Below, one piece after another: positions 4,937 through 33,487 of a stretch of DNA of 36,290 bases. The notes beneath the pieces were generated by a model. The model worked only from the letters and a program-made list of their open reading frames with translations. It was not told the DNA's origin and ran no database searches. The stretch comes from a virus. The DNA is taken from positions 1 through 36,290 of the IMG/VR virus record IMGVR_UViG_3300035661_000181; one strand, written 5' to 3'. The first letter of the stretch is position 1; each line of letters starts with the position of its first letter. Position numbers and translations under genes: made by a program.

Positions 4937-5485
4937 ATGAGTGTTGAGTCTAATTTTTTCACTAAGTTATTAGAGTCTGGAGATTATTCCACCGTTGATG
5001 ATAAGCAAATAAAGGGAAAGTTCTTTAGTGGACAGTACAAAAGGATGTTTAAGTTCATACAAACATTCAAGACTAAGTACTCTAAAGTCCCTGACATTGA
5101 AACTTTCCAACGAAAATTTCCTGACTTTGAGATTACTCCTTCACCAGAGTGTATGGAATATTACTGTGATGCTGTTAGGCAGAAAATAAAGCACAACATT
5201 ATGATTGACTCCCTTGAAAAAGTCGGGGAACAATTAGATGATTTAGATACCGATGAAGCATATGAAATTATCAAAAAACTTATTAGAGAAGTTGAAAGTG
5301 ATATTATCTTAGGCGATACTAAGAAGGTAAATGAGAATGTAGATGATCGATGGAATCAATATATTGAACGCAGAAATACTGGAGGTATTATAGGAATACC
5401 AACAGGAATTGACGCATTTGATAGGATGACAGGAGGACTAGGAAAGACCGACCTTTTAACTATTCTTGGATTTACCGGAGTAGGT
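4937..5485 (+). CDS. dnaB: DnaB-like replicative helicase, exon 1
   Basis: First 183 codons of a DnaB-family hexameric helicase, ending at the third Gly of the P-loop (ILGFTGVG). Residues 1-110 form the helical N-terminal domain that contacts primase; the RecA-like domain starts near IGIPTGIDAFDRMTGGLGKTDLL. Reading straight on gives only seven more residues before a stop. Joining to 5937 restores GVGKTWSL, a complete Walker A. Exon 1 ends in T, as expected for a group I 5' splice site. The spliced protein is 427 aa, normal for phage DnaB. Confidence 0.87.
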
Positions 5486-5936
5486 AAGTTTTCTATAATT
5501 TCTATTTAAAGTACCTTTAAATACTCTATGACCAGGAATGCTTATCACTTTTATAAAGCGGGCAAAGAAGTTATAGAGTTTTTAGACCTTATTTATAAAG
5601 ATGCTAAAGTGTATTTAGATAGAAAATATTATAGATATTGCCGTCTTACAAGTATGTGAGTATCTTGTAGGATTATTAGGGAGCAAAATCGGTGGAAGCT
5701 GTGATATGCCAGTACCGAGGTAACTATCTAATTTAAAAATTAGAAGAACCGTAACGCATAGAGGATGAACCTGTTTACAGAATATAATTCCTCCAAGAGT
5801 GTTCCCCGCTCTCACCTTGTCAACGAATGACTTGATGTGAAAATGTATGCTAGGCTGGGTTGGAAATGACCAACCGATGCAAATGAGGGAAACCTCCAGA
5901 GGTAAGGATAAAAAGCCTTACGTTAATAACATTCCG
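5486..5936 (+). ncRNA. probable group I intron in helicase gene
   Basis: A 451-nt non-coding insert between GVG and KT of the helicase P-loop. Boundaries follow the group I rule: exon 1 ends in U (GGT), the intron ends in G (CATTCCG), and exon 2 opens AAAACG. It is rich in hairpins, including TCTAATTT/AATTAGA, GGTTGG/CCAACC, a GAAA-capped GAGG/CCTC and GTAAGG/CCTTAC near the 3' end. GCTTAT at 5540-5545 could pair with exon GTAGGT (three wobbles) as P1, but this is weak. P7 was not assigned. There is no ORF inside, and none of the GUGYG start of group II introns. Confidence 0.75.
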
Positions 5937-6671
5937 AAAACGTGGTCTTTAATTATTCTAGGAGTAGCATTAGCCAAGACGGGAACTAAAGTTCTATTTA
6001 TCACAAGAGAGATGAGTCCCGACCAAGTATTAAAACGTACTGATGCTGTCTGGTGTGCAATAAGTTATAATGACTTTAACCGTGGACAGTTATCTATTAA
6101 AGATGAAACGAAGTACAGAGAGTATTTGAACCACATGGCGGAAAAAGAGGTAAATTTCGTCGTGGAATTAGCTACTGGAGGGGTAACTAATATTGCCGCT
6201 TTGATAGATAAACATGAGCCAGAAGTTGTTTTCGTCGATGGAGCATATTTAATGACGGACGATGAGGATGACGATGATTGGAGAGGAACTATGAAAGTAT
6301 GGCGTGGAATGAAACAAATATGTCTTGCCAAAAAAGTTCCGATTGTTGCTACCTCACAGTCTAAGGAAAGTGAAAAGGTTACTCTAGGGAAAATATCCTT
6401 CAGCAAAGCATTGGCGAATGAGTGTGACGTTGTTATAGCGTTAGAGCAGGACTCCGAGATGTTTAAGATGAAGGATATGATGTGGAAACCATTAAAACTG
6501 CGAGATTCTGAAATGACGGGTTACTTTGTTACCAAGTGGGATTGGAACCATATGGATTATCATACCACTATTTTTGAGGGAAGGTTCTTAGATAAACCAA
6601 CGGCGGAAGAATTGCCGGAAGAAATTCAAGATATAGATAAGAAACCCACCAATAAAATAAGTAAGCGGTGA
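5937..6671 (+). CDS. dnaB: DnaB-like replicative helicase, exon 2
   Basis: 244 codons plus stop completing the helicase. It opens with KTWSLI (end of Walker A). It carries the H1a glutamate region FITREMSP, Walker B EVVFVDGAYLM, the IVATSQS motif (H3-like) and a C-terminal acidic/basic tail. The same frame is open from 5847, but those residues are intron sequence. The primase gene follows after 4 nt. The protein should unwind duplex DNA 5'-3' ahead of the phage polymerase and recruit the primase next door. Confidence 0.87.
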   Translation, partial: KTWSLIILGVALAKTGTKVLFITREMSPDQVLKRTDAVWCAISYNDFNRGQLSIKDETKYREYLNHMAEKEVNFVVELATGGVTNIAALIDKHEPEVVFVDGAYLMTDDEDDDDWRGTMKVWRGMKQICLAKKVPIVATSQSKESEKVTLGKISFSKALANECDVVIALEQDSEMFKMKDMMWKPLKLRDSEMTGYFVTKWDWNHMDYHTTIFEGRFLDKPTAEELPEEIQDIDKKPTNKISKR

Positions 6672-11010: not shown

Positions 11011-12222
11011 ATGATTAAAGCAGTTATCGGAGCCAACTACGGCGATGAGGGAAAAGGATTGATGACAGACTATTTCGCCGCCCAAAGCAACAGAGCATTA
11101 GTAGTAAGATTTAATGGCGGAGCGCAAGCTAGTCATACCGTTGTTACCCCAGAGGGATTCCGCCATGCTTTTAGTCATATTTCTTCAGGCACTTATGCAG
11201 GAGTTCCCACACTTCTTAGTAAACATTTTATTATTAATCCTATGCTTTTTCGTAAAGAAATTGATATTTTGGGACGTAAAATGACCCTTCCTGACATATG
11301 GGTTGATGAGCGTTGTATTGTAACTACTCCTTATGAAATGTTATTGAACCAGATTATTGAAGAAATGCGCGGGAAATATAGACATGGAAGTTGTGGTGTT
11401 GGGATAAATGAAACCGTTAACCGTGACTTGAAATATAGTATTCGTGCAGTTGATTTTTATAATGAGGATTATATGTTGGATGTATTGTATGAACTGCGCA
11501 AGAATTATATTTTAGATAGATTAGATTCATTAGGATTTAAGTTCATACCTACTGACTATCTAAAGATTCTCTCTAGTGAAAGAATTATCCATGCATATAT
11601 GGAAGATATTAGATTCTTTAAACATAACACCTGCCTCATTAATACCGGAAAAATTAGACCTCTTACAGATATTTTTGATGATGTTATTTTTGAAGGCGCA
11701 CAAGGATTGGAATTAGACCAGAACAGTATGAACTTCCCTCATGTCACTCGCTCAAATACAGGACTAAAAAATATTGTGGATATTGTGCAGGAAAATTGTA
11801 TGAAAGGAAAAATTGACGTAACCTATGTTAGCAGATGGTACGTCACGAAACATGGAGCAGGAAATTTTCCGAATGAAATAGCCAAGAAGGATTTGTCCAC
11901 AAAAATTATCGACCTCACCAATGTTCCTAATTCCTATCAAGGGGGCATACGTTATGGATTGCTAGATGTGGATAGACTGCGTGATAATATCACAAATGAC
12001 CTGATACATGGAAACACCGGTGAAGTTAATCTAGCAATAACATGCTTAGACCAATTAGGCTTATCTCCTGTTATTCCGATTGTGTTTGGTGGGGCCAGAA
12101 AACTATGTGGGACTAACGCATTAGAAGGATTTTTCCGCAGACTAATGAATATAAATAAATTATTCATCAGCGATGGAATGACTAGGGAAACAATAAGGGT
12201 TATTGACAATAGTATTAAATAG
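11011..12222 (+). CDS. PurA/PurZ-family adenylosuccinate synthetase
   Basis: A 403-aa GTPase-fold ligase of the PurA superfamily, which joins aspartate to a purine nucleotide (IMP in PurA; dGMP in phage PurZ, giving 2-aminoadenine DNA). Seen: P-loop GANYGDEGKG with Asp12, GGAQASHT with His42, FEGAQGLELDQ, VTRSNT, and HGAGNFPNE. The Arg-rich GRRRRTGW loop of bacterial PurA is absent; SYQGGIRYGLLD replaces it (about residues 308-319), which resembles the phage branch as I recall it. The catalytic Asp is kept, whereas described PurZ enzymes carry Ser, so substrate specificity is open. AAGAAAGGTGG precedes the ATG. Confidence 0.88.
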   Translation: MIKAVIGANYGDEGKGLMTDYFAAQSNRALVVRFNGGAQASHTVVTPEGFRHAFSHISSGTYAGVPTLLSKHFIINPMLFRKEIDILGRKMTLPDIWVDERCIVTTPYEMLLNQIIEEMRGKYRHGSCGVGINETVNRDLKYSIRAVDFYNEDYMLDVLYELRKNYILDRLDSLGFKFIPTDYLKILSSERIIHAYMEDIRFFKHNTCLINTGKIRPLTDIFDDVIFEGAQGLELDQNSMNFPHVTRSNTGLKNIVDIVQENCMKGKIDVTYVSRWYVTKHGAGNFPNEIAKKDLSTKIIDLTNVPNSYQGGIRYGLLDVDRLRDNITNDLIHGNTGEVNLAITCLDQLGLSPVIPIVFGGARKLCGTNALEGFFRRLMNINKLFISDGMTRETIRVIDNSIK

Positions 12223-16140: not shown

Positions 16141-16217
16141 GCCACTATAACACAACGGTTTTAGTGTAAGGGTTTTGTAAACCTTCAATGCGGGTTCAAT
16201 TCCTGCTAGTGGCTCCA
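16141..16217 (+). tRNA. tRNA-Thr (TGT)
   Basis: Acceptor GCCACTA/TAGTGGC, D-stem ACAC/GTGT, anticodon arm AGGGT-TTTGTAA-ACCTT (anticodon TGT), T-arm GCGGG-TTCAATT-CCTGC, discriminator T, encoded CCA. Reads ACA. Confidence 0.88.
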
Positions 16218-16224
16218 TACATAT

Positions 16225-16294
16225 GAAGGAATTGAACAGATAGTGACGTTCTGAAATATTGGAAGTCTTAGGGTACAGATTCTCCGTTCCTTCA
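16225..16294 (+). other. degenerate tRNA-like sequence
   Basis: Ends GAAGGAA/TTCCTTC pair perfectly and GAAC/GTTC forms a D-like arm. A 7-nt loop ATTGGAA (TGG, Pro-like) sits on a poor stem and no T-arm is found. No CCA. Probably a tRNA relic. The stretch on to 16424 holds hairpins (TCGGT/ACCGA around ATTAGTG/CACTAAT; CTCGG/CCGAG; TACTCCCATTGGGAGTA) but no gene I can name. Confidence 0.35.
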
Positions 16295-16424
16295 TTAAAT
16301 ATCTCGGTCACTACCCTTTCGCTGATTAGTGAATCGTAGGCACTAATATACCGATAGAGAGTGTTAAAGCAGTTCACTCGGATGTTCGCGCCGAGAAAAA
16401 TACTCCCATTGGGAGTACCAACAT

Positions 16425-16499
16425 TGGGGATTCGTATAATGACAAGTACAACTGTCTTTGACACAGTTAGAAGTGGTTTGATTCCACTATCCCCTTCCA
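16425..16499 (+). tRNA. tRNA-Gln (TTG)
   Basis: Acceptor TGGGGAT/ATCCCCT (first pair T-T), D-arm GTA/TAC, anticodon arm ACTGT-CTTTGAC-ACAGT (anticodon TTG), T-arm AGTGG-TTTGATT-CCACT, encoded CCA. A weak first acceptor pair is typical of tRNA-Gln. Reads CAA. Confidence 0.85.
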
Positions 16500-16504
16500 T
16501 ATAT

Positions 16505-16574
16505 GCAGGATTATTTTATGGGAGAATACTTTTCTTGCAAATAAGTGGCAGTAGTTCGATTCTACTATCGTGCA
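16505..16574 (+). tRNA. tRNA-Ala (TGC), degenerate
   Basis: Acceptor GCAGGAT/ATCGTGC (one mismatch), anticodon arm CTTTT-CTTGCAA-ATAAG (anticodon TGC, one mismatch), T-arm AGTAG-TTCGATT-CTACT perfect, discriminator A, CCA not encoded. The D-stem is weak and AT-rich, and the acceptor lacks the G3-T70 identity pair of tRNA-Ala, so charging with Ala is uncertain. Confidence 0.65.
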
Positions 16575-16645
16575 TCAATTGACGACTTTTTTGGGAGTAT
16601 GTCACCGTCATTAAACAATAAAAGCTGTCCCAAAGATTACATAGT

Positions 16646-16722
16646 GTTCCTGTAGGCCAATTGGCAGAGTCAGTAGACTTAAAATCTACGTAGTGCGAGT
16701 TCGAGTCTCGCCAGGAACACCA
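16646..16722 (+). tRNA. tRNA with Leu anticodon TAA, short variable loop
   Basis: Acceptor GTTCCTG/CAGGAAC, D-loop AATTGGCAGA, anticodon arm GTAGA-CTTAAAA-TCTAC (anticodon TAA, reads TTA), T-arm GCGAG-TTCGAGT-CTCGC, A73, encoded CCA. The variable region is only 5 nt (GTAGT), whereas bacterial tRNA-Leu normally has a long class II variable arm. Confidence 0.88.
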
Positions 16723-16725
16723 TTT

Positions 16726-16802
16726 GCTCTCGTATTCCAATTGGCAGAGAAAGTGGTCTTAGAAGCCATAAAGTGTCAGTTCGAGTCTGACCGAGAGTAC
16801 CA
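16726..16802 (+). tRNA. tRNA with Leu anticodon TAG, short variable loop
   Basis: Acceptor GCTCTCG/CGAGAGT (first pair G-T), anticodon arm GTGGT-CTTAGAA-GCCAT (anticodon TAG, reads CTA), T-arm GTCAG-TTCGAGT-CTGAC, A73 and encoded CCA. The variable loop AAAGT is again 5 nt. It starts 3 nt after the previous tRNA and shares its D-loop, so the two probably arose by duplication. Confidence 0.85.
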
Positions 16803-16806
16803 TAAT

Positions 16807-16880
16807 GCGACTATAGTTAAACGGTATAATACGCGCCTTCCAAGCCTGAGTTGTCAGTTCGATTCTGATTAGTCGCTCCA
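16807..16880 (+). tRNA. tRNA-Gly (TCC)
   Basis: Acceptor GCGACTA/TAGTCGC, anticodon arm CGCGC-CTTCCAA-GCCTG (one mismatch; anticodon TCC), T-arm GTCAG-TTCGATT-CTGAT, T73, encoded CCA. Reads GGA. Last gene of the cluster. Confidence 0.85.
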
Positions 16881-16952: not shown

Positions 16953-17281
16953 GTGAAACTTTTTTATAGTGAAACTCAGCATAAGAAAATTCCGCTTGAC
17001 GATGTTGCGGTAAGCATTTATAATTATATTAGGGAGGACGAAAGCAACATTATAAAACTTGAAAAGAAGATTAGATTAATGCATAGAAAGCTATCTAATA
17101 TTCGGAATAACCATTTACATCAAGCAACTACTAAGATAGTGAAAACCAAACCATCAAGAGTAGTTATGGAAACACTTAATGTTAAAGGTATTTAATTATT
17201 CAGCATAACTACGTAAACAGTTATGACTGATATGTAGGATTCGTTGTATCCGAATTTAAGCCCTTGGAGTGTCACAAATAA
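16953..17281 (+). pseudogene. decayed TnpB-like (IS200/IS605 OrfB) remnant
   Basis: An open stretch from GTG 16953 (80 aa) ends KKIRLMHRKLSNIRNNHLHQ...SRVVMETLNVKGI. It lines up by eye with the conserved TnpB segment LxRKLS...(F)HKxSxxxV...xVxEDLNVKGM around RuvC-II, whose catalytic Glu is kept. The ORF stops there; RuvC-I, the zinc finger and RuvC-III are missing. About 50 nt on, SEFKPLECHK before TAA matches typical TnpB C-termini (EFxPVECP). So the middle is deleted and the gene is a relic. Whether the 80-aa piece is still made (it has GGACGGTG upstream) is unknown. Confidence 0.55.
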
Positions 17282-17382
17282 AACGAAAGTAGCTTTTAGC
17301 AAAATCAGACACGTTGAATAGGGAATTAAACAATCTTTATTAAGTTTTATAAAGTTTTGGCAACGGTAAAGCACTCACTGGA

Positions 17383-18182: not shown

Positions 18183-20363
18183 ATGTTTCACCCCAATTAC
18201 TACACCTTAAAAATAGTCCAGAGCAGTCTGGAACTATACTCTTTAGTCAAGAAACTGAAACAATCTAAAGTTAGGTACTTCGATACTGAAACTACTGGAT
18301 TGAAAGTTCGCTATCCAAATAATGACCGTATCGTTGGATTCACGTTTGCGATGGATGATGAAATAGATGATAAGGTGTATTATATTCCAGTAGCACATGA
18401 CTTTGAAGGAGAGTACCGACTAGGACATGTGAACTATGAAAAACTAAAGCCTTTAACTCCCGCAGATTTTCCTCACTTCAATGAAGAAATACTCCTGGGC
18501 GATTACAACAACATGGACTTGGATGAAGTTTTACAGGAAATAACCCCTGTGTTTTATGAGCCGGGAATTTTAGTCGCACATAATATAATGTTCGATTTAC
18601 ATGTATTAGCGTGTTGTGGAATAGATGTAGAAACAATATTTGAACGAGTTACTTTGTTTGATACACAGATAGCTTTTCATACTGTTGAAGAAGAAGCGGA
18701 GAAGAAATTAGAGTCCATTATCAAAAGATATTATAATATTATTAAAACTGACTACAATGATGTGGTATCTACTGTATGGGGTGATGAGAAAAAGTCCGTA
18801 GGACTAAAGGCGAATAACAAAGCATCCTTCCAGCACGTTCAGATTCCTATTGGAGCATACTACTCTGGAGAGGATGTATGGTTTATGAAGCAACTATACT
18901 TTGAAGTTATAGATAAACTTGTCGAAGATGAACAGGACAAGCTATTCTATAAAATGCGTATGCCTTTCCTTCCTGTATTATGGAGAATGGAACGCAGGGG
19001 AACAAAAGTAGATAAAGCCAAGTTAGCCATTATGACCGAAAAAGCGCAGAAAGCATTGCAAGACATTGAGTATGAATTATACGAACTAGTGGGGCTGGAG
19101 TTCTCTGTAGGTAGTGGTCAGCAGTTAGCTGAACTTCTTCATGGACACGTTAAGAAATTGAAGGACAAAGACAGTGGTGGATTTAAGGAAAGTTGTAATC
19201 AACTAATAGTTGATAAGAACTTTGGATTCCCTGTTATCAACTGGACCGATGGGGGTAATAATGATAAGAAAACGCAGAATATATTGCGAGTTCCTCAGAC
19301 TAATGCCACCACTTTAGAAGAGTTATTAGACGTAGAATGGAATTCTAAATTCAAAGTAACTAAGCAATGGTTTGAAGTCGGGAAAAAAGTCATTAAATTA
19401 CTATTAAAACACGCAAAATTAAAGAAACTGTATTCCGTATATATGGCAGGATTGTTGGATGATATATACCAAGATGGAAAAGTGCATCCCTCTTTTAACA
19501 TATGTGGTACTGATTCCTGGCGTTTGTCCTGTGATTCTCCTAACCTCCAGCAGTTACCTAGACCGTTGGAAGGAGATGAAGAGGACTATGAATTCTGGAA
19601 TCAGTTTGAAATACGCGAATTGTTTATCCCCGATGAAGAGGACGAAGTTATAATAGCTAGTGACTGGAACAACCTTGAAAAGAAGATAACAGCACACTTC
19701 ACCAAAGACCCTGCACTATTGAGATTATTCGCGGAAAAATTGGATGGCCATGGACAGATAGCTACAATGGTATTCGCTGAGTGTAAAGACTGTCATCCAA
19801 ATGAGGTCAAGAAAAAGTATCCTCATTTACGCCAAAGAGCAAAGTCTATAGGATTCGCAATGGACTATGGCGGAACAGCTTATGCTGTGCAACGTAACCT
19901 TAAATGTTCATTAGAGGAAGCACAAGGATACGTCGATGCGTACTTTGAGGGCTTTTCAGGACTAGCACAGTGGGCAACAAAACAGAAACAATTCGGGCGA
20001 AAGTTTGGATATGTTCTTACTATCTTAGGACACAAAAGACATCTAAGTGGAATACTTGAAAGTAATGGAAAGATTCGTTCTTACTATGAAAGGATTTGCT
20101 TAAATGCCCCGATACAAGGAAGTGCGGCGGATATAGCAATTCGCGCACAAATAGCAATAGATAAAGACCCAATCCTTCGCGCCATTAATTGTAGAATGAT
20201 TATCCAAATACACGATGAAATTGTATTAGTTGCACCAAGAAGGTATGTAAATTTGTGTATGGAAAGAATTGCTTACCATATGGAGTTCTGCTTACCTCAC
20301 CCTATGGTAGTACCTTTAACTGTAGGAATTGATTATGGAAAAACTTATGCAGAAGCTAAATAA
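18183..20363 (+). CDS. family A DNA polymerase with 3'-5' exonuclease
   Basis: A 726-aa Pol I-type replicative polymerase. Exonuclease: FDTETTG (D34, E36), VAHNIMFDLHVL, and YYSGED. Polymerase motif A ASDWNNLEKK replaces the usual DYSQIELR (Gln/Ile/Glu to Asn/Leu/Glu). Motif B is RQRAKSIGFAMDYG, and motif C is IHDE (HDE at 677-679). There is no 5'-3' exonuclease domain. A-family enzymes with exonuclease also serve the known Z-genome phages, but nothing here proves a base preference. It has its own promoter. Confidence 0.93.
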   Translation: MFHPNYYTLKIVQSSLELYSLVKKLKQSKVRYFDTETTGLKVRYPNNDRIVGFTFAMDDEIDDKVYYIPVAHDFEGEYRLGHVNYEKLKPLTPADFPHFNEEILLGDYNNMDLDEVLQEITPVFYEPGILVAHNIMFDLHVLACCGIDVETIFERVTLFDTQIAFHTVEEEAEKKLESIIKRYYNIIKTDYNDVVSTVWGDEKKSVGLKANNKASFQHVQIPIGAYYSGEDVWFMKQLYFEVIDKLVEDEQDKLFYKMRMPFLPVLWRMERRGTKVDKAKLAIMTEKAQKALQDIEYELYELVGLEFSVGSGQQLAELLHGHVKKLKDKDSGGFKESCNQLIVDKNFGFPVINWTDGGNNDKKTQNILRVPQTNATTLEELLDVEWNSKFKVTKQWFEVGKKVIKLLLKHAKLKKLYSVYMAGLLDDIYQDGKVHPSFNICGTDSWRLSCDSPNLQQLPRPLEGDEEDYEFWNQFEIRELFIPDEEDEVIIASDWNNLEKKITAHFTKDPALLRLFAEKLDGHGQIATMVFAECKDCHPNEVKKKYPHLRQRAKSIGFAMDYGGTAYAVQRNLKCSLEEAQGYVDAYFEGFSGLAQWATKQKQFGRKFGYVLTILGHKRHLSGILESNGKIRSYYERICLNAPIQGSAADIAIRAQIAIDKDPILRAINCRMIIQIHDEIVLVAPRRYVNLCMERIAYHMEFCLPHPMVVPLTVGIDYGKTYAEAK

Positions 20364-20447: not shown

Positions 20448-21155
20448 TTGAGAGCAGAAATCAACGCCATTATCAACAAGATTAACAAAGACTTTGGAAT
20501 GAACGCTATACGAAAGGCCAGTGACGTAGAGGAAGTTAAATCCCGTATTTCCTCTGGAAGTCTAACCTTGGATATAGACCTTGGCGGGGGTATTCCTATT
20601 GGAAGAATGACGCAGATAAGCGGAGGATTTTCCGCCTGTAAATCTGCCCTTGCTTACCATATTGCCGCTAATGCACAAAAAATGCGCAAGAAATTAGTTC
20701 GATGGGATAAGTATTGTACCAAGGATAAAGAGATAAAGCATTGGGTTATATGTGACCCTAAAGACAAAGAAGGAGTTCCTTTAGTTGTTGCTATTATTCA
20801 ATCCGAGAATCATTCATACTCTAATTCATGGGCAACAGGAATAGGGATAAACGTCGATGACCTTATATTTGTAGCACCTGAAGGGATGGAAGAAGGATTA
20901 GAAATAGCAGGACAGTTACAAAAATCCGGCGAAGTTGATATAATTATTCATGACAGCTATGCCGCTTATAAGCCCATTAAAGTTATAGAAAAGTCACAGG
21001 AAGATACTGTACAGATGGGTATAAAGAACCAATGCTTTGACGAGTATCATGGGAAGTACCAAGCCTTTAACAACCGTCTAGAGCGCGAGGGGAAGTTACC
21101 AACAACCCTTATTGCATTAAACCAGTTGCGTGAAAAGATAGGAGCTTATGGCGAT
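20448..21155 (+). CDS. recA: RecA/UvsX-like recombinase, exon 1
   Basis: The first 236 codons of a strand-exchange ATPase. It starts at TTG with GGGAGGGG upstream. SGSLTLDIDLGGGIPIGRM leads into the P-loop GGFSACKS (60-66 region), where the usual Gly before Lys65 is Cys64. Walker B-like IIIHDSYAA follows, and exon 1 ends NQLREKIGAYGD. Reading on gives an immediate TGA. Joining to 21520 gives GDPEYEPGGRSIGF, matching RecA NQ-REKIG...GDPETTPGG. The spliced product is 414 aa. Confidence 0.87.
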
Positions 21156-21519
21156 TGAATTAAAATTCTAGTATACCCCTTTAAAAATTTCTTTGTCATT
21201 CCATAAAGTTTTAAAACTTTTGGGGAGATAAAATATCTAAGGAAATTATATTAGAGTTTATTAAAAATTTGGGTCGCCCTGTACAGGAATGTATAGAAAA
21301 CAACCATGTGAACGCAGGCAAAAGCGGTGTGTCTCTTAAAGAGATGCTAACGATGGACGGAAAAATCCCAATATCGTGCCAATCCCGAAAGGGAAGGTGT
21401 AACGACTATCGAAACCACGCTATTAGCGGAAGGGAGTAGAGTAGGATAGAGATTAGCACTATTCGAAGCGCATGGCATCCAGAACGGATGAAGAGATAGT
21501 CTAGTTGCGAAAGCAATTG
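21156..21519 (+). ncRNA. group I intron in recombinase gene
   Basis: A 364-nt ORF-less intron. Exon 1 ends in U (GGCGAT) and the intron ends in G (CAATTG). GTCGCC at 21273-21278 pairs with the last six exon bases with U-G at the splice site (P1), and the two preceding G pair with CC of exon 2 (P10). GACTATC (21404-21410) pairs with GATAGTC (21495-21501) as P7. P9 is TTGC-GAAA-GCAA near the end, and CCC-GAAA-GGG lies upstream. The P1 loop is long (about 117 nt). Confidence 0.88.
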
Positions 21520-22056
21520 CCTGAGTATGAACCAGGAGGAAGAAGTATTGGGTTTACAAGCAGTATAAATCTCCGTTTGCGTAGAGGTGATTGGATTACC
21601 ATTGGAACTGGGGACAATAAGAGAATTATTGGTCAGGTTACCAAATACAAAACCCATAAGAATAAGACCTATAAACAGCAACAAACCGGTGAGTTTGACT
21701 TCTACTTCGATGAGGGCGGAGCCGTTCCAGCCGGAATGATAGATAATGCCAAGGAATTAATTATCCTTGCTATTGTTTATGAAGTAATAGAAAGGCGTGG
21801 AGCATGGTATTATTATAAGGGACAGCAGATTGCACAAGGCGAAGCTAATGCCATTGAGTTAATTCGTGGGGATGAAAAACTTTTCGCGGAAATTAAAAAC
21901 ACTGTTACCAAGTTGTCATTAGAAGCAGACGCAGAAGTAGAGCGCCCAGATGTGTTTGGAACTGATGATATTATCTTGAACGATATAACTGATGGTGTAA
22001 TTGAATCTAACGAAGTTATAGTAATAAAATCTGCTTCAAAAGGGAAAAAGAAATGA
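21520..22056 (+). CDS. recA: RecA/UvsX-like recombinase, exon 2
   Basis: 178 codons plus stop. It opens PEYEPGGRSIGFTSSINLRL, the conserved post-L1 segment with strand beta-5, then a GDW-TIG region and a KYKTHKNKTYKQ basic patch that resembles loop L2/C-terminal segments. The C-terminus is acidic with a final KGKKK. The apparent TTG start at 21505 is intron sequence. The stop overlaps the next mini-gene. Confidence 0.87.
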   Translation, partial: PEYEPGGRSIGFTSSINLRLRRGDWITIGTGDNKRIIGQVTKYKTHKNKTYKQQQTGEFDFYFDEGGAVPAGMIDNAKELIILAIVYEVIERRGAWYYYKGQQIAQGEANAIELIRGDEKLFAEIKNTVTKLSLEADAEVERPDVFGTDDIILNDITDGVIESNEVIVIKSASKGKKK

Positions 22057-27485: not shown

Positions 27486-27857
27486 ATGTATATCACGCGA
27501 GAATTTAGTTTCTGTGCGGCCCATTATTTAGATGGATATAAAGGCGACTGCGCTAATATGCACGGACATACCTGGAAGATTGCCATAACTATATTTATCC
27601 GTCAGATGGATAAATTGGGAATAGGGATAGACTTCAAGAAACTAAAGACTGTTGTAACAGACAAGATAATTGTCAAGTTCGACCATAAAGTATTAAATCA
27701 TGTAATGCCGATAAATCCAACGGCGGAAAATATCGCTAAGTGGATTTTTGAGGAATTGGACGAGGACTTTAGAGATACTTCAAAGGAGTGCTTCCTATCC
27801 AGCGTCAAAGTGTGGGAGAATTTTCCCGACTGTTATGTAGAATACTATGGAGAGTAA
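27486..27857 (+). CDS. queD: 6-carboxy-tetrahydropterin synthase
   Basis: A 123-aa PTPS-fold enzyme. Zinc ligands His13, His26, His28 (AAHYL, MHGHTW), catalytic Cys22 (GDCANMHGH), and late FDHKVLNH and PTAEN motifs. QueD turns dihydroneopterin triphosphate into 6-carboxy-5,6,7,8-tetrahydropterin, step 2 of preQ0 synthesis. AAAGGAAGTGG precedes ATG. The other pathway genes queE, queC, folE follow, separated by unrelated small genes. Confidence 0.93.
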   Translation: MYITREFSFCAAHYLDGYKGDCANMHGHTWKIAITIFIRQMDKLGIGIDFKKLKTVVTDKIIVKFDHKVLNHVMPINPTAENIAKWIFEELDEDFRDTSKECFLSSVKVWENFPDCYVEYYGE

Positions 27858-27908
27858 TTGTTAATTTAAGTGGGATATTCTCGCCACAAAATGTATTAGG
27901 AGATTAGA

Positions 27909-28277
27909 ATGAAAAGATACCACAAAGATATATTCTTTGAGGTAGGAGTACAGGATGAGATTAAAGAGTTAATCCAAACTTTAGAATTTCATCCCACCAG
28001 ACACTTTATGAAAAGTTGGATGGAAAGGGGTAATGTTTGTATTCCTACTAAACATATGATACAACAAGGCGAAGTTTTCGAGTATTATCGCAATAGGCGC
28101 GGAGAAGTAGAGAAATTCGCGGTAAGATGTTGTAATATGTCAAATGATTACGATATTATCTATGTCATAAACCAGTATGGGGGATTAGTAACATCATGGA
28201 TAAACACTAAGAATGAACAACATGAGGACATGAAGATGGAAGTTTATGAGCAAGGGATGCCAAGTATACCAAATTAG
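27909..28277 (+). CDS. small protein, possibly DUF4258/toxin-like fold
   Basis: A 122-aa protein. FHPTRHFMKSWMERGNV...HMIQQGEVFEYYRNR...KFAVRCC...DYDIIYVINQYGGLVTSWI resembles the His/Arg-rich DUF4258 pattern, a RelE/BrnT-like beta-sheet fold in some toxins. The match is only by shape of motif. It lies inside the 7-deazaguanine cassette, between queD and a decayed endonuclease, and may be cargo rather than pathway enzyme. Confidence 0.5.
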   Translation: MKRYHKDIFFEVGVQDEIKELIQTLEFHPTRHFMKSWMERGNVCIPTKHMIQQGEVFEYYRNRRGEVEKFAVRCCNMSNDYDIIYVINQYGGLVTSWINTKNEQHEDMKMEVYEQGMPSIPN

Positions 28278-28350
28278 AATTGCAAGTACCTTACTAATTA
28301 TACAATAGAGAAGTATTTGAATTATTTTTATCCACATTTAATATAGTTGA

Positions 28351-28890
28351 ATGAAAAACAACGAAAAGGTAGTAGAACCAGAAAAGTAAACGATGAATTT
28401 ATTGAGATAGTGTTAGACCTTTCAGAACAAGGTATGGGAATAGAAACTATAGGGAAAACTTAGGACTAGATGGGACTACAGTAAGATATAACTTAATAAA
28501 AATACTTGGAAAAGAAGAGTACGAAAAAAAAAACGCTCTAAAACAAAATTTACGGAAAGTAATGGATGGAATGAAAAATATTATATACAACTAAACCTGG
28601 TATTAGAGTAATTTAGAAGTAGAAACCCCTGAATTATTAGATAAATTGAGTATAAAATTTGAATCCCATAGTTATTTAAAACTTGGCAATAATAAATACT
28701 TTCCAGACTTTTATATACCTTCCCACAAATTATATATTGAATGTGCCGTAATCATAAATAGAGAATTTTATAAAATAAAATAAAATTAATTAAAAAGGTT
28801 AATAACTATTCAATATATGATGTTAATTTCTTATTAGTATCTTCTGATACCTTTAACAGTTTTGAACAAGTGTTAAAGGAGAGATTAAAG
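28351..28890 (+). pseudogene. decayed homing endonuclease (PD-(D/E)XK type)
   Basis: No single ORF, but three frames carry one protein: an HTH segment (FIEIVLDLSEQGMGIETIGK, then LGLDGTTVRYNLIKILG after a shift near 28460), then LDKLSIKFESHSYL...KYFPDFYIPSHKLYIEC, a Vsr/EDxHD-like nuclease core (PDF...IE). The usual Lys after Glu is lost, and several stops and indels intervene. A mobile freestanding endonuclease invaded between 27909 and queE and decayed. No other gene in 28278-28891. Confidence 0.6.
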
Positions 28891-28891
28891 T

Positions 28892-29533
28892 ATGTTAAGT
28901 GTATGTGAGATACAGGACTCACTTCAAGGAGAAGGTAAATATACAGGAATACCAACAACATTTATTCGTTTATATGGATGTAATCTTTATTGTACTTACT
29001 GTGATAGTGAGTACGCCAGAAGGAATGGTAAGAGAAGAAATGCCAGCATAGAAACGATTATGAACGCAGTATATAAACTTAAAAATAAGCACGTATGTAT
29101 TACAGGCGGAGAGCCTTTATTGCAAGATGATATTTACCCATTGGTTTATGAATTAGTTGATAAGCAGTACATCGTATCAATCGAAACTAACGGTAGTATT
29201 GATATAGAGAAAGACAGTTATAACCGCTCATTTAGCTACTGTATGGACATTAAATGCCCATCAAGCAAGATGGCACATTTAAATAAATATACCAACTTAG
29301 CCAATCTATTAGGGAAGGATGAGGTTAAGTTTGTCATACAAGATTTTGAAGATTTTATGTTTGCCGTAGGAGTCGTCAGGCAATATCCTACACAGGCTTG
29401 CTATATTTTTTCTCCGTGTTTTTCTAAAGATGGAACAAGCAACGCGAAAGAAATAGCATCATGGATGATGGATAATAATGTGACTAACGTTAGATTGGGC
29501 ATACAGATGCACAAAATTATAGGAATATATTAA
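28892..29533 (+). CDS. queE: 7-carboxy-7-deazaguanine synthase (radical SAM)
   Basis: A 213-aa radical SAM enzyme. CNLYCTYC (C30, C34, C37) binds the 4Fe-4S cluster, preceded by the QueE signature SLQGEGKYTG. ITGGEPLLQ and ETNG follow. It converts carboxytetrahydropterin to 7-carboxy-7-deazaguanine. RBS AAAGGAGAG lies inside the decayed endonuclease. It is slightly shorter than many QueE but has all core motifs. Confidence 0.93.
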   Translation: MLSVCEIQDSLQGEGKYTGIPTTFIRLYGCNLYCTYCDSEYARRNGKRRNASIETIMNAVYKLKNKHVCITGGEPLLQDDIYPLVYELVDKQYIVSIETNGSIDIEKDSYNRSFSYCMDIKCPSSKMAHLNKYTNLANLLGKDEVKFVIQDFEDFMFAVGVVRQYPTQACYIFSPCFSKDGTSNAKEIASWMMDNNVTNVRLGIQMHKIIGIY

Positions 29534-29591
29534 GGAAATTAGTGAACGTAAAATGTATGTATACGAAATACGAAACAGAGAGGGAAAAATA

Positions 29592-29954
29592 ATGCCAATA
29601 GCCGCAATAGACTTTGATGGAACCTTATGTGAAAATGCGTACCCAAAAATAGGTGCTCCAAAATGGGAAGTAATTAATAAAGTAAAAATTCTCAAGAAGG
29701 ATGGATGGCAATTAATTCTATGGACTTGCCGCGAAGAAGATAACCTAGTTTCCGCTATAGATTGGTGTAAATCAGTAGGATTAGAGTTTGATGCGGTCAA
29801 TGATGAAGTGCCAGAAATAAAAGAATTATTTGCTAGTGGCTCAATGTACCGTACAATACTACTACGTGAAGCCACAAGATGCGGAGCAAAGATTTATGCA
29901 GATATTTACCTAGATGATAAGAACGTCACTTTGGAAGAATTTTTGAGGGATTAA
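29592..29954 (+). CDS. HAD-family phosphatase
   Basis: A 120-aa HAD hydrolase starting MPIAAIDFDGTLCEN: D-x-D nucleophile pair at residues 7 and 9, and ILWTCREEDNL as motif II (Thr). Start at 29592 behind GAGAGGG is preferred to 29553. Flanked by queE and queC, it may remove phosphates in nucleotide or pterin metabolism, for example from dihydroneopterin or base-modified nucleotides; the true substrate is unknown. Contrast the inactive-looking HAD at 4528. Confidence 0.75.
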   Translation: MPIAAIDFDGTLCENAYPKIGAPKWEVINKVKILKKDGWQLILWTCREEDNLVSAIDWCKSVGLEFDAVNDEVPEIKELFASGSMYRTILLREATRCGAKIYADIYLDDKNVTLEEFLRD

Positions 29955-29955
29955 A

Positions 29956-30600
29956 GTGGATACTAAAGCATTGCTACTAGTTAGCGGAGGATATGATTCT
30001 TATGTTATATCTGCATTATGTGAAAGCCTTTGTTACCAGACCCATTATTTATTTTTTAATTATGGGCAAAAGGCGTACCCTAAAGAATATGACGCAGTAT
30101 CCCGACTGTGTAATAGAGTTAATGGAGACAGTTTTCAACTCAGTGATAAACTCACTGAGGTAATAATTAATGCTCCTTGGTTACTGAATGGATTTAAAAA
30201 AGGAGATAATTACTTTCCTTGGCGCAATTTAATGTTTCTATCTCATGCCCTATCTTATGCTGAAACTTATATGTATGACATGGTAGTGATTGGAACAAAT
30301 TCCGCAGGAGATTATGCAGATTCAAGTGATACCTTCATAAAGACTATGGAGCAGATATACCAGACAGTGGGGATTAAGTTGTGGAGTCCTTTGCAGAATA
30401 TGTTTAAAGGGGATGTCTATGACTTAGGTAAGAAACTTGAAGTTAATTTTGAAGATACTTGGAGTTGTGACTTTTCTGATAAGTCCCTTCCATGTGGGAA
30501 ATGCCCATCTTGCCAGGATACGAAGATGGGAATTAAAAATGGGTATTTAGAAGGTAGTATAACTTTTTTAGATTCTTCGGTTGAAGATTTTTATAGATAG
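29956..30600 (+). CDS. queC: 7-cyano-7-deazaguanine (preQ0) synthase
   Basis: A 214-aa PP-loop ATPase. SGGYDS (residues 10-15) is the PP-loop; C171, C180, C183, C186 (SCDF...PCGKCPSC) are the zinc ligands of QueC. It amidates and dehydrates CDG to preQ0 using ATP and ammonia. It starts from GTG or nearby, 1 nt after the HAD stop, so it is coupled. No QueF gene (preQ0 reductase) was seen in the window, so preQ0 is the likely end product. Confidence 0.93.
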   Translation: MDTKALLLVSGGYDSYVISALCESLCYQTHYLFFNYGQKAYPKEYDAVSRLCNRVNGDSFQLSDKLTEVIINAPWLLNGFKKGDNYFPWRNLMFLSHALSYAETYMYDMVVIGTNSAGDYADSSDTFIKTMEQIYQTVGIKLWSPLQNMFKGDVYDLGKKLEVNFEDTWSCDFSDKSLPCGKCPSCQDTKMGIKNGYLEGSITFLDSSVEDFYR

Positions 30601-30609
30601 TGGTATAAT
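30581..30609 (+). promoter_or_regulatory. promoter before small peptide gene
   Basis: TTGAAG, 17 bp, TATAAT (30604-30609), overlapping the end of queC. The leader has a hairpin AGTGGAGG/CCTCACT (one bulged G) at about 30636-30671. Confidence 0.6.
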
Positions 30610-30703
30610 ACTTATAGACCTAATGGGCTAAAGGAAGTGGAGGAATCTGAAAAGACCTTCTTCCCCTCACTAACCTTGGTACTACTAAAGGAGGTGCAAC
30701 CCC

Positions 30704-30832
30704 ATGCTATTTGTTAAAGGACTAGCTTCGAGTGGTGGAGAAAACAAAATCACCAAAAAAGGAACTGGAATCAAGAAAGCTTCTGGTGGAGAAAACAAAA
30801 TCACCAAAAAAGCACAGAATGTTGGGAAGTAA
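30704..30832 (+). CDS. 42-aa Lys/Gly-rich repeat peptide
   Basis: A short basic peptide with a perfect internal duplication of SGGENKITKK (coded by a near-perfect 27-nt direct repeat). Strong AAAGGAGGTG lies 8 nt before ATG, a promoter and structured leader precede it, and a terminator follows, so it is a single-gene unit. Likely disordered; nucleic-acid binding is plausible. No family recognised. Confidence 0.6.
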   Translation: MLFVKGLASSGGENKITKKGTGIKKASGGENKITKKAQNVGK

Positions 30833-30838
30833 TTAATT

Positions 30839-30866
30839 AAAAGACCGCTGATACTAGCGGTCTTTT
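30839..30866 (+). terminator. rho-independent terminator
   Basis: AAAAGACCGCT-GATACT-AGCGGTCTTTT, 11 bp. Bidirectional-looking. Isolates the peptide gene from folE; an extended -10 (TGATATACT, 30875-30883) follows but no clear -35. Confidence 0.88.
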
Positions 30867-30905
30867 ATCTTTTGTGATATACTATATACTAAAGGAGTGT
30901 GTTTT

Positions 30906-31478
30906 ATGAATAATGAAGAAATTATTGCTTCCTGTCTATATGAGGTAATACTAGCATTAGATAATGAATATAGAGAAGCCTTATATGTTACTGAAAATCC
31001 GCATCTAAAAGGAACTGCTAAGAGAATAGCTAAGATGTGGATAGAAGCATTTAAAGGATTAGGTAAGCCCGATTTTGAATTTACTACTTTTCCATTTGAA
31101 AGCGAGATAGACAATGAATTTTCCAACTGGATTATCATTAAAGACATCGAGTTTTCTTCTTGGTGCGCCCATCATTTTCTCCCTTTTAGTGGAACAATTG
31201 ATATTGGATACGTTCCCAACGCTTTGATTGCAGGAGCCAGTAAGTTACCCAGGACTGTCGAATACCTGTCAGCTAGACCGCAAGTACAGGAACAGTTAGG
31301 TGAGGATATTATCCAGTTTCTATATGATAGATTATTAACTTCAAAGATATGCGTGAAAATAACTTCTAAACATACGTGCATTGCTTGCCGTGGAGCGAAA
31401 TCGCGCAATAGTGAAATGGTGACTTATCATTCATTCACCAAAGGAGATTTAAAGGAATTTCTGGAGATGATGAGATGA
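30906..31478 (+). CDS. folE: GTP cyclohydrolase I
   Basis: A 190-aa FolE-type enzyme: SSWCAHHFLPFSG (zinc Cys and His), ASKLPRTVEYLSARPQVQEQL, and HTCIACRG with the third zinc ligand Cys. It converts GTP to dihydroneopterin triphosphate, the first step to preQ0. ATG at 30906 has AAAGGAGTG 6 nt upstream; GTG at 30897 is in frame but abuts the RBS. The stop overlaps the DpdA-like start (ATGA region), tying precursor synthesis to DNA modification. Confidence 0.94.
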   Translation: MNNEEIIASCLYEVILALDNEYREALYVTENPHLKGTAKRIAKMWIEAFKGLGKPDFEFTTFPFESEIDNEFSNWIIIKDIEFSSWCAHHFLPFSGTIDIGYVPNALIAGASKLPRTVEYLSARPQVQEQLGEDIIQFLYDRLLTSKICVKITSKHTCIACRGAKSRNSEMVTYHSFTKGDLKEFLEMMR

Positions 31479-33487
31479 ATGATTATATAAAGAGCGAGTT
31501 TCAAATATTCTTTTCGGGTGTTGAACCCCCAAGGTATTTTGATATAGTAGTCAATGAAACTAATGCTATATTAATGTCATATCATTACATTCAACGTAAG
31601 GGGAAGAAGTTTTTAGAAGAGTGTAAGAAAAAACGCCCCGATATGAGAATGTTAGTAGACTCAGGCGCACATACCTTCATTAAGAAGGAAGATGAATATA
31701 CTAAGAAGCCAATGGAATATTGGGAGAATTATCTTGAAAAATATACTCAATTTGCGCGAGATAATAAAGACCTTGTTTTCGCTATAGTAGAATTAGATAT
31801 AGACTATATTGTTGGGCAAGAAAAAGTTGAGGAATGGCGCGAAAAGTACTTTAAACCCCTTGAAGAAGAAGGAATCCAAGTTATATATGTTTGGCATCGA
31901 GTTCGTGGTGATGCAAATTGGGAAGATATGTGCAAGAAATATAGCTATGTAGGGTTCAGTATTCAAGGGGATTCAGATATGACCGTAGATAGATGCTCCA
32001 AGATGGTAAACATAGCTAAGAAGTATGGAACTAGATGTCATGGGTTCGCTGTTACCGGAATGGATTATATGCAGAAAATACCACTATTCACTTGTGACTC
32101 GACGACATGGTTAGTTGGGACACAATTTGGCGAGGTAAACTACTTTGATGGACGTACTATGAAACGTCTAAAGAAAGATAAGTGGAAACGCCAGTACAAG
32201 AATAAGTATGTTGCCCTTGGAGCCAACTGGAACTTGGCGGAAAGGGAAGACCCTTACGAATTGGTGAGGATGAATGTTTTAGTATTCCTGCAAGTAGAAA
32301 AGTATATTCGCAGTATTATGAAGAACAAGATGTATTGGTTGCAGGGAAAGAAAGTTGTCGCAGAGAAGTCAAGGATTGAAATGCCCAAGAGAGAAATTAT
32401 TGATATAGAAGATGTTCAACTTCCTGACTTTGAATGGCTTAAAGGGGATGAAAATGAGGGATATGAAGAATATGCCCAAGCATTAGGGATTGATATTAAT
32501 TTGCCCAAAGACCAGATAGTGGCATGGATTGAAATGTTCTATATGTTCATTAAATGGGATACTAAGTTAATGGATGCTACTCCCGATGAAGAATTATATA
32601 TTGCTGTGGATATATTCGGACTAAAGAATGAATGTAATACTCGCAAGAAAGCGATTGAAGCACTAGGACAGTGTTTTAAAGACCATGCTTGCGGTAAACG
32701 ACATGAATTTGAGGAGTATGCACAAAAACTTGCGCAAGCAGGACAAGCCCCACCTAAAGCCAAGGAGCGCAAAGATTATTATGAGGAAGAAAGCCATACT
32801 CTTGTTGAGGTTCCTAAAGAGCAAATACAATCTATTCTCAGCCGCTTTATTCCCCAGGATACTACCGCAGATATGCCAGAAGTTGCCGCAATAGATGAAG
32901 AATTAGAACGTAATAATATAATTCCTATTAGAGATGAAAAAGGATGTCTATTAAAAGGACAGACCGCAGTTAGGAATAGGAAGACTATTTATTCGGACTT
33001 AATGCCTAAGTTGGCCTGTGACACCTGTATTAAAGCAGGAGGATGTCCTGACTATAAGCCTGGATTTGTATGTGCCTATAATAAGCTATTTAAGCGTTTT
33101 GATACGCGAAACAAAGCAGATATATATGATGCAATGACAACGATGGTTGAAACAAATTTAGAGCGTCTACAACGTCAGATGGTATTTGAGATGTTAGATG
33201 GTGGAGTTGCCGACCCGACTGTCACTTCTATGATTGACCAGAATATTAAACTTCTTAGTATGTTAAATAGTTTAGAAAATCAAGGAAATAGAATAACCGC
33301 GCAGAGAAAAGTAGTAGTTGATAGTACAGGGAAAGTAGAAACTGTAGAAACGGTAACAGCCAATCCCCAAGAGGGAGGAATATTAAGTAAAATCTTTGGA
33401 AACTCAATGAATCCTCCAACGGTAGGACTTAAAGGGGAAAAAGAAGAAGAACAGGAATATATAGATGTAGAAACCCTTAAAGAGTAG
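31475..33487 (+). CDS. TGT/DpdA-like DNA base exchange protein
   Basis: A 670-aa protein. Residues 1-230 read as a TIM barrel of TGT paralogue (DpdA) type: MLVDSGAHTF (D62), VFAIVELDID (D108, D110), VIYVWHR, YVGFSIQGDSDM, and TTWLVGTQFGEV. DpdA enzymes swap guanine for preQ0 or a derivative in DNA. Context supports this: it overlaps folE and follows queC. Residues about 230-670 are extra, with a Cys cluster C515, C518, C524, C533 and a helical, then disordered acidic tail. Some TGT zinc-site features are not obvious, so the assignment is by motif and context. Confidence 0.7.
   Translation: MNDYIKSEFQIFFSGVEPPRYFDIVVNETNAILMSYHYIQRKGKKFLEECKKKRPDMRMLVDSGAHTFIKKEDEYTKKPMEYWENYLEKYTQFARDNKDLVFAIVELDIDYIVGQEKVEEWREKYFKPLEEEGIQVIYVWHRVRGDANWEDMCKKYSYVGFSIQGDSDMTVDRCSKMVNIAKKYGTRCHGFAVTGMDYMQKIPLFTCDSTTWLVGTQFGEVNYFDGRTMKRLKKDKWKRQYKNKYVALGANWNLAEREDPYELVRMNVLVFLQVEKYIRSIMKNKMYWLQGKKVVAEKSRIEMPKREIIDIEDVQLPDFEWLKGDENEGYEEYAQALGIDINLPKDQIVAWIEMFYMFIKWDTKLMDATPDEELYIAVDIFGLKNECNTRKKAIEALGQCFKDHACGKRHEFEEYAQKLAQAGQAPPKAKERKDYYEEESHTLVEVPKEQIQSILSRFIPQDTTADMPEVAAIDEELERNNIIPIRDEKGCLLKGQTAVRNRKTIYSDLMPKLACDTCIKAGGCPDYKPGFVCAYNKLFKRFDTRNKADIYDAMTTMVETNLERLQRQMVFEMLDGGVADPTVTSMIDQNIKLLSMLNSLENQGNRITAQRKVVVDSTGKVETVETVTANPQEGGILSKIFGNSMNPPTVGLKGEKEEEQEYIDVETLKE

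Follow-up and report, generated by a model that had tools for sequence, protein, structure and literature searches.

The 451 nt at 5486-5936 of the viral DNA analysed here (the window: the whole 36,290-nt stretch, IMG/VR record IMGVR_UViG_3300035661_000181) are almost certainly a group I intron, IA-like, that interrupts the Walker A motif of a DnaB-like helicase, descends from an endonuclease-bearing mobile intron and is spliced out to give a helicase of 427 amino acids. From the sequence we infer splicing in infected cells, dependence on guanosine and loss of homing. All features of the helicase locus, the intron included, lie on the plus strand.

Two open reading frames, at 4937-5509 and 5847-6671, together constitute the helicase. 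Each half matches phrog_19, the profile of DnaB-like replicative helicases (5.6e-27 for the exon 1 half, 2.1e-30 for the exon 2 half), and they cover adjoining stretches of the profile (161-366 and 366-579); the joined protein matches it at 1e-63 and Pfam DnaB_C at 1.4e-18. Deletion of 5486-5936, joining 4937-5485 to 5937-6671, restores Walker A as GFTGVGKTWSL within a single open frame that contains GFTGVGKTWSLIILG. Exon 1 (4937-5485, 183 codons) ends in ...GFTGVG and exon 2 (5937-6671) begins with KTWSL... and closes with the stop at 6671. Unspliced, exon 1 runs on for seven codons past GVG (KFSIISI) to an in-frame TAA at 5507-5509, just within the intron, for a product of 190 amino acids. 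The insertion is in phase 0: the P-loop codon GGT (Gly) precedes it and AAA (Lys) follows. The initial annotation had the P-loop codons themselves split: the Walker A motif is indeed interrupted, but no codon is divided.

The ends of the insert come from a boundary scan of 3,114 open joinings (exon ends 5440-5511 combined with intron ends 5850-5989). Walker A is restored by 29 of these; three of the 29 end the exon with U and the intron with G, and among those three the 5485/5936 joining alone retains KTWSLIILG, where homologs have KTWLEIIIG and KTWFEILIG. Moving the cut across 5485-5489 leaves the protein identical, and the combination of U before and G at the end exists solely for 5486-5936, whose ends read U^AAGU...CCG^ (here and below the caret marks an insertion point), with U5485 preceding the intron and G5936 as its terminal (omega) G. 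The two-part helicase, the restored GFTGVGKTWSL and the U/G ends reported in the initial annotation are, by reconstruction and boundary scan, exact to the base.

One codon junction of this helicase presents a natural series of three states: empty site, endonuclease-bearing intron and endonuclease-less intron. Uninterrupted homologs (L128-L131) read GGTGTAGGT^AAAACTTGG or GGTGTTGGT^AAGACGTGG across the site. The endonuclease-bearing state is found at locus L026 (in IMGVR_UViG_3300029825_000002), whose helicase is 34% identical to that of the window over 410 amino acids (E=3e-74) and carries a 1,185-nt intron of the same family at the identical TGVG^KTW junction; its joined exons align with L130 with no gap at the junction, and its exon 1, like the intronless homologs, is homologous to exon 1 of the window. 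The empty-site homologs came from an alignment-based scan and not from plain tblastn, which with the helicase as query returned remote relatives only in phages and two loci in viral contigs.

The Rfam group I model does not see this intron. RF00028 has no match at gathering threshold across the whole 36,290-nt window, and none to the surroundings of the insert even at E<=10. When 22 loci with family introns were run against Rfam, no family member was detected, and at L115 and L041 the same searches did pick up other group I introns of the ordinary sort. The RF00028 miss is a false negative, overruled by covariation and comparative evidence; the non-standard P7, which is not GACUA/UAGUC, may be part of the reason. 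A group I covariance search without a match is, literally, the result that the initial annotation had named as refuting its claim; since the failure is that of the model, this test would wrongly reject a genuine intron. An Rfam group I covariance search can thus come back empty on a genuine phage intron, and split phage "pseudogenes" may accordingly be intact spliced genes.

Relatives were collected by other means. With blastn against phage records, pieces of the insert are found between or inside split genes: in gyrA of phiR1-37, AR9, PBS1 and BpSp, in the PJN02 Dda/ExoV helicase, in an AAA ATPase of the crAss-like cr6_1, in the tape-measure gene of a phage of C. difficile, and at loci of Lak-A1 and bajarodcaudo virus. 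Some 100 more loci came from scanning viral contigs for motifs, and a profile search of these yields 82 near-complete cores (52 without near-duplicates). The family is widespread among phages. The family profile, when the window is left out of it, still recovers the window at 5675-5855 with E=1.9e-36; the rest of the window contains nothing better than E=1 against this profile.

An alignment of 32 family cores, spanning P3 through the 3' strand of P7, establishes the ribozyme fold. RNAalifold, unguided, returns P3, P4, P6, P7.1 and P8, with compensatory changes in 27 of 30 pairs. With P5 and the P7 pseudoknot included, the P3-P8 structure has 94.4% of 1,175 cells paired, double (compensatory) changes in 31 of 37 core pairs and a covariation score of 0.607. 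The corresponding means for shuffled controls are 72.5% paired and a score of 0.187; none of 500 shuffles matches the observed values, and slid structures reach 35-48%. Single-sequence RNAfold (z=-3.4) does not show P3/P7, which is to be expected of a pseudoknot.

In the window copy the P1, P2, P3, P4, P6, P7, P7.1, P7.2 and P9 hairpins are fully paired. A 9-bp P2 hairpin (5644-5672) precedes the 5' strand of P3 (5679-5684), which pairs with its 3' strand at 5801-5806; all six pairs covary. P4 (5689-5693/5714-5718) encloses P5 (5698-5699/5708-5709) within 5689-5718 and is followed by P6 (5719-5721/5748-5750, within 5719-5750). The weak points are P5, which is short, with two standard pairs only, and P8, which is irregular: P8 covaries family-wide, and its register in the window copy, 5812-5815/5837-5840 (within 5812-5840), is probable. 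The 5' strand of P7 (5754-5760, A.c.GCAUA), with bulged C5755 and guanosine-binding G5756, pairs with UAUGCU at 5846-5851, which J8/7 precedes. The guanosine-binding G-C pair is invariant in the family and adjoins a bulged nucleotide, C or A. Independently of one another, the outer pair and the middle pair of P7 each vary between A-U and G-C, as the variants ACGCAUA/UAUGCU (window), GAGCGUA/UACGCC (L028), GAGCAUA/UAUGCC (L003) and ACGCGUA/UACGCU (L053) illustrate. The window P7 is GCAUA/UAUGC in place of the usual GACUA/UAGUC. Between P7 and P3 lie P7.1 (5761-5765/5789-5793; four of its five pairs covary in the 32-core alignment) and P7.2 (5771-5774/5777-5780), together spanning 5761-5793. P7.1 and P7.2 make up the extension typical of subgroup IA, and by their presence the window intron is IA-like. 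The P9 domain (5855-5921) is a 3-way element with a GAAA-capped hairpin at 5885-5896 and a terminal hairpin at 5902-5921.

P1 straddles the 5' splice site: GGU^AA at 5483-5487 pairs with an internal guide sequence, UUGCC, at 5638-5642, and U5485 forms a wobble with G5640. The helix is only 5 bp in the window, 3 bp of them to the exon. Simply searching for the longest possible P1 pairing is non-specific, giving several chance pairings of at least 7 bp; with chance pairings of similar length about, the assignment rests on positional homology and family comparison. The position and pairing of the guide are shared with L026, L004, L002, L006 and L007, and guides change along with their exons (AUGCU^AA with UUGGCGU in the C. 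difficile phage; CAUGGU^A with UGCCAUG in L007), P1 covariation being seen in L006 and L007.

The features by which sequence and structure mark a group I intron are in place: a P3-P8 core with the P3/P7 pseudoknot, a P7 G-C pair beside a bulge, a U.G wobble with the guide, a G as last intron nucleotide, a gene restored by removal of the insert, and empty alleles. Covariation, homologous introns and empty-site homologs bear out the two central claims of the initial annotation, that the insert is a group I intron and that the helicase is whole only when spliced. The intron is of a known kind; its family deserves a covariance model of its own.

Loop L1 holds what is left of an endonuclease gene. 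A frame of 43 codons at 5528-5659, of which ~31 are recognisable as an endonuclease C-terminus, matches the end of phrog_4645 (profile positions 273-303 of 308, E=8.4e-4); over 31 amino acids it shares 42% identity with the L026 endonuclease, and over 27 it shares 52% with Lak-A1. The L026 intron encodes an intact LAGLIDADG-type protein of 282 amino acids (Pfam LAGLIDADG_3, 8e-10; phrog_4645, 2.6e-51). A homing intron is recognised by an intact intron-encoded endonuclease, and the window copy has the remnant only. The initial annotation held that the insert has no ORF and cannot home by itself: the window and its intron do lack an intact endonuclease, and no copy able to mobilise the intron in trans was detected elsewhere in the window, but a remnant frame does exist. 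Judged by its sequence, then, the window intron is a degenerate mobile intron; its simplest history would be that of an endonuclease-bearing homing intron that has since lost most of its endonuclease.

The following course of events is proposed. The RNA would fold so that P3-P8 surround the guanosine pocket of P7; exogenous guanosine would cut after U5485, held by the P1 U.G wobble (GGU^AA with UUGCC); exon 1 would then attack after G5936, and the joined exons would encode one 427-amino acid helicase. Self-splicing, as in other group IA introns, is most likely. The position of the TAA, seven codons inside the intron, agrees with the view that a ribosome brought to a halt allows the ribozyme to fold (reviewed in PMC3984707). 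The ancestor would have been a mobile intron whose loop L1 held the gene of a LAGLIDADG-type homing endonuclease, and a deletion would have taken this gene except for its C-terminal stretch. The present copy should no longer home alone; being spliced from an essential gene, it would nevertheless persist.

The initial annotation went further in proposing that splicing acts as a timing switch for replication. A complete P-loop is impossible before splicing, so that delayed or conditional splicing by an intron co-opted as a regulator could time the appearance of the replicative helicase, and loss of the endonuclease from an intron whose ribozyme core is intact is what one would expect of an intron kept for a reason. 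However, retention of the ribozyme without the endonuclease is expected even without any benefit, because an unspliced helicase would be lethal; Rfam finds no aptamer-like or other regulatory RNA at the locus, and the L026 relative, endonuclease-bearing and at the identical position, has the look of a normal homing intron. The switch finds no support: anatomically the window intron is an ordinary group I intron of phages, and we regard a regulatory role as improbable. Still less probable is that the intron is dead or decaying, leaving a pseudogene or two separate polypeptides that assemble. The missing Rfam core and the degenerate endonuclease would suit such a state, but each of the core helices P3, P4, P6, P7, P7.1 and P7.2 is still intact, the insertion point separates the P-loop Gly from its Lys, both exons are still recognisable along their length, and exon 2 has no homologous N-terminal extension ahead of KTW.

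That the insert should belong to another class of intervening element is the least credible reading of all. Inteins also invade P-loop proteins, but an intein is excluded here by the stop codons in the exon 1 frame. Group II introns are reported in phages, AR9 and PBS1 among them (PMC12350094), but Rfam yields no group II match at the locus, domain V and a GUGYG start are not found, the insert starting AAGUU, and the U^AAGU...CCG^ ends and the P3/P7 pseudoknot topology speak against that class.

Several known systems resemble the group I intron of the window. The intron in the homologous DnaB-like helicase of L026 shares the TGVG^KTW junction and the ribozyme family and differs in having the full endonuclease. 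The gyrA introns of AR9/PBS1, phiR1-37 and BpSp resemble it in the P9 domain (85-90% identical over ~91 nt), in the GCAUA/UAUGC P7 and in insertion after GGU in conserved codons (GGT^GAATA(T/C)CA(T/C)CC in AR9 and BpSp), and the AR9 gyrA CDS is annotated as joined from three pieces, that is, as spliced; in contrast, their host gene is gyrase and their P4-P6 differ, the P3-P8 core of the window being nearer the PJN02/cr6_1 type. The stretch 5674-5936 consequently looks mosaic, with a P9 domain like that of giant-phage gyrA introns on a core of that other type; L041, in which this P9 domain stands beside a GACUA P7, links the two types of P7. The group IA introns of the T4, Twort and SPO1-like phages and those of Bastillevirinae (PMC11878797) share with the window family the P7.1/P7.2-bearing core, the endonuclease in a loop and the choice of conserved DNA-metabolism and packaging genes as targets, but they align to RF00028 and to the IA2/IA3 models, whereas the window family misses RF00028 and has another P7 sequence. 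Introns of crAss-like phages were recognised via their endonuclease genes (PMC7886860), of which the window intron has no intact one; cr6_1 has a family member, with an endonuclease in L1, at the G^K junction of an AAA ATPase.

The same G^K junction recurs among the targets of the family. It is split in a Dda/ExoV helicase (VGGGGMG^KSW, L003) and an AAA ATPase (LAGTKGTG^KTV, L004); in two terminases (L063, L039) and a Sak4-like ATPase (L024), for which only the downstream exons are placed, the downstream exon begins at the Lys of GK(T/S). In another group of terminases the intron lies 1-2 codons further upstream and exon 2 starts QGKT, LGKS or VGKT. We lean toward the view that these introns form a distinct and widespread phage group I clade, with the GCAUA/UAUGC P7 and unseen by RF00028, that has repeatedly and independently invaded the G^K junction of P-loop ATPases (replicative helicase, Dda, AAA, Sak4, terminase), its GCC guide reading the GGU Gly codon of Walker A. 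If so, published Rfam-based counts of phage introns are systematically too low. As GGU and the intron's own AA suffice for the guide, there is a testable model for recurrent landing in P-loops. A preference for conserved motifs is known from phage introns and inteins; P-loop targeting is therefore a strong case of a known tendency and not a new principle. The contig that carries L026 holds two family introns, in the helicase and in the L063 terminase, both at GK(T/S). Another contig with a family intron (L013) also encodes a ROOL RNA at 172-761 (272.8 bits).

The window has a second split gene. A uvsX/recA-like gene is divided into two ORFs (20448-21158 and 21505-22056), the break falling after ...LREKIGAYGD and before PEYEPGGRSIGFTSS..., and removal of 21156-21519 (364 nt, with U before and G at the end) gives a uvsX/recA frame of 414 codons. 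The Rfam group I model matches this insert at 21237-21519 with 35.4 bits against a threshold of 50 (E=2.6e-7 in 701 nt), and the match ends on the predicted last base. This intron has a P7 of the GACUA type and a 6-bp exon/guide pairing of GGCGAU with GUCGCC (21273-21278). Two RecA-fold genes of this virus thus each contain a group I intron, and default thresholds miss both.

Elsewhere in the window, an adenylosuccinate-synthetase-like gene (11011-12222; phrog_1211, Pfam Adenylsucc_synt) and a family A DNA polymerase (18183-20363) are possibly genes for 2-aminoadenine (Z) DNA. A cluster at 27486-33487, by eye of QueD/QueE/QueC/FolE type, with a queuine tRNA-ribosyltransferase-like protein (phrog_887), hints at a possible 7-deazaguanine DNA modification in the same genome; towards its C-terminus the queuine-transferase-like protein (31475-33487) weakly matches a terminase small subunit (phrog_6902, 7e-6), through either an odd fusion or chance. 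A RAGATH-18 RNA (Rfam RF03064, 60.7 bits) lies at 17261-17325, downstream of the tRNA genes clustered at 16141-16880.
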